From positions 1-26,245 of the IMG/VR virus record IMGVR_UViG_3300035703_000379: a stretch of DNA of 26,245 nt. One strand, given 5' to 3'. The notes beneath the pieces are model-generated. The model made no database searches. It worked only from the letters and a program-made list of their open reading frames with translations, and was not told the DNA's origin. This DNA is from a virus. Shown here in pieces: positions 23,870 through 26,069 of the stretch. A program made the position numbers and the translations under genes. Numbering within the stretch: position 1 is the first letter of the stretch; each line of letters opens with the position of its first letter.

Positions 23870-24406
23870 TTATTTTTTATAAGGAACGAAACTCTGGGTC
23901 ACGTTGTGAGCATAAGCGGTTCCAACAAAATCAACGCTTCTGTTTGATAACGAGCCGATTGTAACACTTCCTGAGATTCTTGTAAACATACCTCTTGCAT
24001 AAAACATCTTCTGGCCAAGCTTATCAAACACTTCAAGTTCAATAAGTGGCTGATGGATAATAGATGCCATGTTTGCCCATAAACCTTGGGATTCAGGTGA
24101 CTCTGAAGGGTCTATAAGTTGTCTCAGTGAGGCTCTAATAGAAACTTGGCCTACAGAAATATCCCACGGAACATGAGTATCAATAGTACGAGTTTCTTCT
24201 GGAGTGAAGTCAATAGTGTAGTTGAAATCTTGACAGACTGCGACGAGTTCACCGGACACAACAACATATGCGCGAGCGCCTGACATATACTGTGGAAGAG
24301 ATACTTTTGGATTTTTACCCAAAGCCTTGTCGCGCTCGGCAGCGTCTTTAAAAGCCTGCCCAAGTTCTTCCATAGATTTTTTCCATGCGTTGCCGGTACC
24401 GCTCAT
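23870..24406 (-). CDS. Tail tube-like protein C (tube or baseplate-tube junction paralogue)
   Basis: The 178-residue product carries QYMSGARAYVVVSG at residues 39-52, matching the FMSGPRLLIKIDG signature of the two tube-like proteins upstream. LIELEVFDKLG near residue 120 lines up with their STFDIEV segment. It adds a roughly 36-residue charged helical N-terminal extension (Glu/Lys/Ala rich) absent from the other two. Its ATG overlaps the previous stop by 4 nt (ATGA) and has no clear ribosome binding site, so it probably depends on translational coupling. The extension suggests a specialised partner, for example at the junction of tube and baseplate or at the head-proximal end. In T4, gp19, gp48 and gp54 are structural relatives that divide such roles. 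The assignment is by pattern and context. Confidence 0.5.
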   Translation of the reverse strand: MSGTGNAWKKSMEELGQAFKDAAERDKALGKNPKVSLPQYMSGARAYVVVSGELVAVCQDFNYTIDFTPEETRTIDTHVPWDISVGQVSIRASLRQLIDPSESPESQGLWANMASIIHQPLIELEVFDKLGQKMFYARGMFTRISGSVTIGSLSNRSVDFVGTAYAHNVTQSFVPYKK

Positions 24407-24726
24407 CTTTTAGTTTTTCTTTTTGTTGGCTTACGTCCGCGTCTTTTTACAGTAACAGTAACAGCGCCCGCTTCAGCAACACTATCCACCATGCTGCGTC
24501 TAATTGCGTAGACAGCAATTGGCTCTTGGCCTTTCATTGACATTTTTGCAATCTCTTCTGGCGACTGCATATAAAAACAAACTTTTCCGTAATCTGAAAT
24601 AAGCCAAGAAACCGCCTTGACAGCCAATTCAGAACCATCGTTAAGATGGACTGTAAACGTCTTTAGGGTAGTATCTGATGAGGAGTATTTATTGTTTGTA
24701 TTTTTAGACAGTTGCACTAAAGTCAT
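24403..24726 (-). CDS. Small protein with strongly basic C-terminus, unrecognised
   Basis: The chosen start is ATG at 24726, giving 107 residues. It has a GGAG site 7-8 nt upstream, whereas the longer in-frame ATG at 24765 sits inside the terminator hairpin with no site. The body (residues 20-90) looks like a small alpha/beta domain. The last 14 residues (94-107, KRRGRKPTKRKTKR) contain 10 Lys/Arg, including an AT-hook-like RGRKP. Such a tail suggests nucleic-acid or acidic-protein binding, and the acidic chaperone candidate at 23471-23851 lies two genes downstream. The stop overlaps the next start as ATGA. I do not recognise a family. Position between two tube-like genes suggests a role in tail assembly, but this is inference. 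Confidence 0.7.
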   Translation of the reverse strand: MTLVQLSKNTNNKYSSSDTTLKTFTVHLNDGSELAVKAVSWLISDYGKVCFYMQSPEEIAKMSMKGQEPIAVYAIRRSMVDSVAEAGAVTVTVKRRGRKPTKRKTKR

Positions 24727-24737
24727 GATATTACTCC

Positions 24738-24776
24738 AAAAAAAGGAAATACCCCTAGAGGTCATCTAGAGGTATT
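24738..24776 (-). terminator. Rho-independent terminator after tube-like gene B
   Basis: On the minus strand AATACC-T-CTAGA, loop TGACC, TCTAG-G-GGTATT forms an 11-bp stem with one mismatch (24776-24748). It is followed by TCC and seven T residues (24744-24738). This is a textbook intrinsic terminator layout. It lies between tube-like gene B and the 107-residue gene, so it should reduce read-through from the sheath/tube messages into the rest of the module. Confidence 0.7.
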
Positions 24777-24803
24777 TTATACCATGGGCCTTAAAAGAGT
24801 CAA
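24776..24803 (-). promoter_or_regulatory. Sigma70-like promoter with extended -10, overlapping a terminator
   Basis: The minus strand reads TTGACT (24803-24798), a 16-nt spacer, then TATAAA (24781-24776) preceded by TGG, which makes an extended -10 (TGG-TATAAA). Both hexamers match the consensus at 5 of 6 positions. Expected initiation about 7 nt downstream, near 24769, falls inside the 5' arm of the terminator hairpin. It would drive the 107-residue gene, tube-like gene C, the chaperones and possibly the tape measure gene. This is a sequence-only prediction. Confidence 0.55.
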
Positions 24804-24809
24804 GTCGGA

Positions 24810-25490
24810 TTAGACTGCCGAACCAAATCCAGATAGGTCCGCAGTGTCTCTTTCGCCGCCTGCACGGTCTTCAGATACTAGCAACGTGCCAGTAAATGAG
24901 AATGATTCAGTAAGGAGCTGTCCTGCAGAAATACTCGCTGAACGAGAGTTAAGTCTGCAATTTTGCACAGTAAAGTGTTTTACAAGAACACCTTGTTTAT
25001 TATTTAGCGATGTACCGTCAGTGCTTTTTAGAGCATCTACTTTTGGATACATCTGCCACACTTCAATATCAAATGTGGAAGACACTAGCACTGAGGTAGG
25101 GTCTAAGTGTCTTTTAAGGTTTTCTGTGGCACTAATGGTTGAATTTGACGTACCTGCCGTTCCTGCAGCGTCTGGAGTATTAAGACCTGTTAAAGATGAT
25201 TCAGGAAGTGTTGTTAAAGCTTTTTTATCATCGGCTTTGGTGGCAGATGCGTTTGCACTTAGTGTGTTGCGAGAGGCAGAGTCAAGCAATCGAACAATCT
25301 GCATACTGCCAGAAACGCCGTTATACATTGTTGCTTGGATAGCGACTGAAGCGAAGCTACCAAGTGTATTTACAATCTGTACGTTTCTGCTTACGCGAAG
25401 GTCTAGACCAACAGCATACGCAACCTTTACTCCATCAATTTTAATGAGGAGTCTTGGGCCAGACATAAAAAATGGAGTTTGAGCTGCCAT
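24810..25490 (-). CDS. Tail tube-like protein B
   Basis: The 226-residue product is a paralogue of the preceding gene: FMSGPRLLIKIDG at residues 8-20 matches FLDGARLVVKIDG at the same positions there, and STFDIEVW near residue 138 matches STFDIEVY. It is longer because of a Ser/Thr/Ala/Asp-rich, probably flexible insertion at about residues 70-128. This could be a surface loop or a lumen-facing loop if the fold is tube-like. The ATG start has an AAAGG site that overlaps the stop codon of gene A, so the two are probably translated together at related levels. It is followed by a promoter-like sequence and a terminator. It could be a tube subunit or a tube-initiator/terminator relative, as gp48 and gp54 are to gp19 in T4. 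Confidence 0.55.
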   Translation of the reverse strand: MAAQTPFFMSGPRLLIKIDGVKVAYAVGLDLRVSRNVQIVNTLGSFASVAIQATMYNGVSGSMQIVRLLDSASRNTLSANASATKADDKKALTTLPESSLTGLNTPDAAGTAGTSNSTISATENLKRHLDPTSVLVSSTFDIEVWQMYPKVDALKSTDGTSLNNKQGVLVKHFTVQNCRLNSRSASISAGQLLTESFSFTGTLLVSEDRAGGERDTADLSGFGSAV

Positions 25491-25502: not shown

Positions 25503-26069
25503 TTATCCTTTAGTAATACGTTCATCTTTGTCTTCAATTAGACGACAAACAATAGAAATATCTTCTGACACAAGAGCGCCTACGTTAAAACGAATAGAAA
25601 GGTCTGTAATTAGACAGTCTCTCATTACATACGTAGCGCTTGACAAGGCATTTCCTTCCCCAACGCGAGTATAAACTTCAATATCAAAAGTAGATTCTAA
25701 TAGCATTTTGACCGGAGAAAAACTATTAAGCATCATCATGGAGTTACCATCCGATGCTCTGTCATTAGTCATGCCGGTTGTGCTGGCGATTGCGTTTACT
25801 TTGCCCTTCATATCGGGAATATCTGCGTCGCCTCTTCCAAGCGCTTTCAATCCCAAGGCCGCTGTGGTATAACGCAATATTCTGAGAGATGCTTGAGCTG
25901 AGTAAATCATAGGTTCGTTAGTATGGGGGCTGTATGAACCGATACCCATAGTCAACTGCGAAGCCATATTGTCGGAAAAGCTAACAGCCTCGCAAAAAGC
26001 AAACGGTTTACCGTCTATTTTAACGACAAGCCTTGCTCCGTCCAAGAATGCTGGTAATTTGTTTGCCAC
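25503..26069 (-). CDS. Tail tube-like protein A
   Basis: The 188-residue product would polymerise into the inner tail tube through which DNA passes, or cap it. The start is GTG (26067-26069), preceded by an AGGAG-type site at 8-9 nt spacing. It follows the sheath gene directly, as tube genes usually do. The N-terminus has FLDGARLVVKIDG at residues 8-20 and the C-terminal half has STFDIEVYTRVG near residue 126. Both align with the next gene and more weakly with the gene at 23870-24406. The alternating hydrophobic pattern suggests a mainly beta structure. Nothing here tells which of the three paralogues is the main tube subunit. The family call comes from position, size and paralogy. Confidence 0.6.
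   Translation of the reverse strand: MANKLPAFLDGARLVVKIDGKPFAFCEAVSFSDNMASQLTMGIGSYSPHTNEPMIYSAQASLRILRYTTAALGLKALGRGDADIPDMKGKVNAIASTTGMTNDRASDGNSMMMLNSFSPVKMLLESTFDIEVYTRVGEGNALSSATYVMRDCLITDLSIRFNVGALVSEDISIVCRLIEDKDERITKG

Follow-up and report, generated by a model that had tools for sequence, protein, structure and literature searches.

Genes and features at the tail gene junction

The window, a 26-kb viral record analyzed over its full 26,245 nucleotides, comes from an uncultured, contractile-tailed phage. On its minus strand, between two blocks of tail genes, lies a predicted promoter/terminator element of 66 bases (24803-24738) with the layout 5'-TTGACT CTTTTAAGGCCCATGGTA TAAAAT ACCTCTAGATGACCTCTAGGGGTATTTCC TTTTTTT GGAG. 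The element occupies the whole gap from the stop codon of a tail-tube-like gene to the Shine-Dalgarno sequence of a 107-aa gene. Comparisons were made across nine loci, namely the window and eight related viral contigs. The features are as follows.

24810-25490, minus strand: upstream gene, tail-tube-like, 226 aa (Pfam Phage_tube_2, 2.6e-6, just above the cut-off)
24798-24803, minus strand: -35 hexamer TTGACT, the same in 9 of 9 loci
24774-24779, minus strand: -10 hexamer TAAAAT after an 18-nt spacer, the same in 9 of 9 loci with constant spacing
24766-24767, minus strand: expected transcription start, A24767 or G24766, predicted from the -10 position; within an invariant TAGA where the 5' arm ends
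24765-24777, minus strand: 5' arm of the terminator stem, from folding and covariation
24747-24759, minus strand: 3' arm of the terminator stem, from folding and covariation; loop at 24760-24764
24738-24744, minus strand: run of seven T residues preceded by CC, read directly; T6-T8 in all relatives
24734-24737, minus strand: Shine-Dalgarno GGAG right after the T-run; GGAG and its 7-nt spacing to the ATG are constant in all loci
24403-24726, minus strand: downstream gene, 107 aa, start ATG 24726 assigned by conservation; no family match

The tube-like gene ends 6 nt ahead of the -35 hexamer, and its paralog is a 188-aa gene at 25503-26069. Modelling the tube protein with AlphaFold gave a structure of too low quality for use (pLDDT 32), and a PDB search returned nothing useful. 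In the relatives, the upstream block consists of a protein of 939 aa with homology (28% identity, 3e-59) to what is annotated as the tail sheath in Myxococcus phage Mx1, followed by two tube-like paralogs; this homology bears out the sheath assignment made in the initial annotation. Further downstream are small genes, a 1004-aa protein of tape-measure size that had no family match, baseplate proteins and a 2486-aa Baseplate_J protein. An alternative start for the 107-aa gene at the in-loop ATG 24765 (ORF called as 24403-24765) was rejected, being not conserved; automatic annotation would begin the gene too early, at this hairpin ATG.

A conserved putative promoter overlapping the terminator stem

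TTGACT (24803-24798), TATAAA (24781-24776), the hairpin and exactly seven T residues (24744-24738) all lie on the minus strand where the initial annotation had placed them. The -10 proposed there, TATAAA after a spacer of 16 nt, is not conserved, GCTAAA taking its place in three relatives (L003, L004 and L008); therefore the -10 in use is taken to be TAAAAT. The proposed extended -10 does not hold up either, as TGG-TATAAA becomes CGC-TAAAAT or TGC in relatives and no TGn precedes TAAAAT. With the invariant TAAAAT and its 18-nt spacer, the expected start shifts from 24769 to about 24767/24766, which leaves it inside the 5' arm, as first proposed, at a corrected position.

TTGACT-N18-TAAAAT matches 10 of 12 consensus positions and has the TTGACA-like and TATAAT-like hexamers and 16-18 nt spacing of a sigma70 promoter. 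The last four bases of TAAAAT are also the first four bases of the hairpin. Across the nine loci, all 12 hexamer positions and the spacer length of 18 are invariant, while spacer sequence identity falls to as low as 7/18 and four-fold degenerate sites of the adjacent tube gene approach saturation (about 0.46 identity between groups). Such constancy amid divergence indicates selection on the promoter. Use of sigma70 is an assumption. No sigma factor or multisubunit RNA polymerase gene was found in four relatives, so host RNA polymerase likely reads the element.

Promoter-like sites show only a weak excess in the intergenic DNA of these genomes. A search of all viral contigs with the promoter pattern gave 22 matches, eight of which are the tail loci with hairpin and T-run; the other 14, without hairpin and T-run, look like chance matches. 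A second conserved promoter, TTGAAA-N17-TAAAAT, precedes the giant Baseplate_J gene (window 14469-14441, minus strand) and has no terminator. Its leader, ACCTGAATCTTATTGAG, is strongly conserved in the window and the six relatives that cover the locus (G006 21190, G007 78936). A third, TTGACTTTC..GGTAAAAT, precedes the gene predicted to encode the portal (L034 near 2282, corresponding to G006 42282; L046 near 528, corresponding to G007 100528).

The predicted terminator hairpin is maintained as RNA

Folding gives a 13-bp stem (24777-24765 with 24759-24747) in place of the 11 bp first described, with a loop of five and a minimum free energy of -15.4 kcal/mol (z = -4.1; none of 200 shuffles as low). 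The stem containing G+C, the short loop and the U-rich tract together have the form of an intrinsic terminator, and this form is conserved. Comparison of relatives for covarying stem changes, as the initial annotation had proposed, revealed compensatory changes with pairing kept: 97.7% of cells are paired across relatives, against at most 56% in slid-partner controls, and covariation is 0.256, against at most 0.140 in slid controls. Two stem pairs have changed on both sides, from A-U to G-C and from C-G to U-A. All wobble pairs in the stem are U-G on the sense strand, corresponding to A-C mismatches on the opposite strand, which indicates selection for an RNA hairpin in the strand reading the tail genes. 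The pattern is unlike that of a DNA palindrome or an antisense RNA, neither of which would stay paired.

The stem and T-run are separated by one or two C residues, or by AAC in one relative (L018). A heuristic terminator score ranges from about -16 to +19, which is moderate; the same heuristic gives 40 for the terminator after a relative's capsid gene. Because of this gap and the moderate score, partial read-through is likely, and the element may lower read-through rather than abolish it.

Occurrence in related viral contigs

Each of the eight related viral contigs that span the site carries the element, and both parts are present in 9 of 9 loci; a close relative lacking one of them would have spoken against the proposal, but no covering contig lacks either. 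A scan for terminator-like hairpins with a predicted start in the 5' arm or loop returned one per contig in eight contigs. All eight matches are this orthologous place, although each contig carries 1-14 terminator-like sites. The fused pattern occurred 0 times in 3.74 Mb of dinucleotide-shuffled sequence, despite 105 terminator-like sites there. We conclude that the element is real and beyond chance. Nucleotide and tube-protein searches found no relatives in 50,697 phage records, and none were found among genome contigs. Searches with sheath and baseplate proteins found no further contigs covering the site; L093 and L096 end short of it by coordinate estimate. No Rfam cis-regulatory RNA scored above the gathering threshold, and the matches seen were at chance level.

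Predicted folds of read-in and newly started RNA

RNA read in from upstream folds at -14.1 to -19.0 kcal/mol in computations for the nine loci, with the stem adjoining the U-run. RNA started 6-10 nt past the -10 folds at -2.8 to -7.8 kcal/mol at the same loci, forming small displaced stems only; the value of -7.8 kcal/mol belongs to G005, in which CCCC and GGGG re-pair over four bases away from the U-run. The comparison of upstream-started with internally started transcripts, suggested at the outset, thus agrees with the idea that new transcripts escape: the stem next to the U-run is lost in all nine loci. The effect is also larger than first proposed, as RNA with the corrected start (24767/24766) would lose about 10 of 13 stem pairs and not six. 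In these computed folds the start lies inside the hairpin and only read-in RNA forms the stem, the arrangement that marks the fused type. That read-in RNA stops and new transcripts escape is the mechanism best supported by the predicted structures.

Proposed mechanism and alternatives

We consider it probable (about 75%) that the element is a fused terminator-promoter that resets transcription between the tail blocks. Host sigma70 RNA polymerase arriving from the sheath and tube genes would transcribe the whole inverted repeat, and the read-in RNA would form a hairpin of 12-13 bp followed by U6-8, at which most polymerases would presumably stop (24744-24738). From TTGACT-N18-TAAAAT, a second transcript would begin near 24767/24766, where the 5' arm ends. 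Deprived of about 10 of 13 arm bases, this RNA should form no hairpin next to the U-run and would continue into the small gene (GGAG, ATG 24726) and on through the genes for assembly, tape measure and baseplate. The transcription level could thereby be reset within 66 bp, between abundant sheath and tube proteins and downstream products of lower abundance. The positions of start and stop, the strength and the purpose are all inferred.

The element might instead be a terminator only, its promoter-like hexamers a by-product of the hairpin's A-rich foot. TAAAAT does partly overlap the A-tract facing the U-run, and chance promoter-like matches are common, yet TTGACT and the 18-nt spacing are useless to a hairpin and are nonetheless invariant at near-saturated divergence. 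Promoters of the same type also precede the baseplate and portal genes, and we regard this reading as very improbable. It is likewise improbable that the promoter is accompanied by an inverted repeat acting without termination, as a repressor DNA site over the start or as a hairpin that stabilizes or processes RNA. A palindrome across +1 is in the usual operator position and the heuristic terminator score is moderate, but the U-G pairs occur on the sense strand only, the stem changes in sequence while RNA pairing is kept, and the T6-T8 run is present in all loci. The hairpin possibly stabilizes RNA besides terminating.

Stop and start might also be coupled, positively if a polymerase, having terminated, moves some 60 bp back along the DNA and fires again, or negatively if stalled terminating polymerases block the promoter. 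Once it has terminated at an intrinsic site, Escherichia coli RNA polymerase stays bound to the DNA and re-initiates nearby, at a measured rate of about 43% for upstream re-initiation when sigma70 is added (PMC6978380, PMC6978322), and the stop-to-start distance here, 23-29 nt, is within one polymerase footprint. Sliding in vitro spans far longer distances, however, which would make fusion unnecessary, and we consider coupling unlikely. There is a slim chance that the element is a re-loading device, passing polymerases terminated at the T-run directly to the overlapping promoter; tail-assembly transcription would then track sheath and tube transcription at a fixed lower ratio.

As a fused terminator-promoter, the element would be a clean and strongly conserved natural case of a promoter and terminator with common bases, among the tail genes of an uncultured group of phages, governed by a simple rule in which presence or absence of the 5' arm in the RNA decides between stop and go. 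It would serve as a compact, ready-made insulator and as a natural template well suited to tests of post-termination re-initiation.

Comparison with known systems

Precedents exist for the functional layout as well as for the fused geometry. The nearest cultured relative is Myxococcus phage Mx1 (sheath, baseplate J and DnaE), which likewise has a strong hairpin terminator just past the small gene following the sheath; unlike here, no sigma70-like promoter was found at that terminator. The Mx1 terminator (L059 27726-27757) is 13 bp long and lies 24 nt past the gene that comes after the sheath; its downstream half extends into the start annotated for a gene that carries the label RNA ligase A. 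At the 18/19/20 junctions of phage T4, hairpins stand beside late promoters with no T-run; the late promoters (TATAAATA) abut small hairpins between the sheath and tube genes (L103 4030-4120, genes 18/19).

The element type is already visible in phage M13. We take the site at the M13/f1 gene VIII/III junction to be the gene III promoter and central terminator. As here, an abundant virion gene is followed by a -10, a stem, a T-run, the Shine-Dalgarno GGAG and the next virion gene. The M13/f1 -10, TACAAT, ends 1 nt before a 9-bp terminator stem, and a start 6-9 nt past it falls in the 5' arm by computation, the fold going from -15.1 to about -0.9/-8.5. The phage and sequence are unrelated, however; M13 has a weak -35 and a stronger stem, and the four bases common to -10 and stem here are not common to both in M13. 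Literature searches by exact phrase and on M13 gene III found no paper on point within the collection searched. Salmonella phage IKe also has an annotated promoter and then a stem-loop between genes VIII and III, but its -10 ends 17 nt upstream of the stem, and the full hairpin would therefore be part of any new transcript.

In Listeria phage A511 the arrangement is tandem and not fused, with a stem at 2880-2900 followed by TTTACT-N17-TATAAT ending at 2941. In Listeria phage CKA15 (Herelleviridae), ONT-cappable-seq mapped an intrinsic terminator downstream of the tail tube gene, together with a fresh start serving the tail-assembly genes that follow (PMC12282133), the same functional layout at a tail tube junction, established there by RNA mapping.
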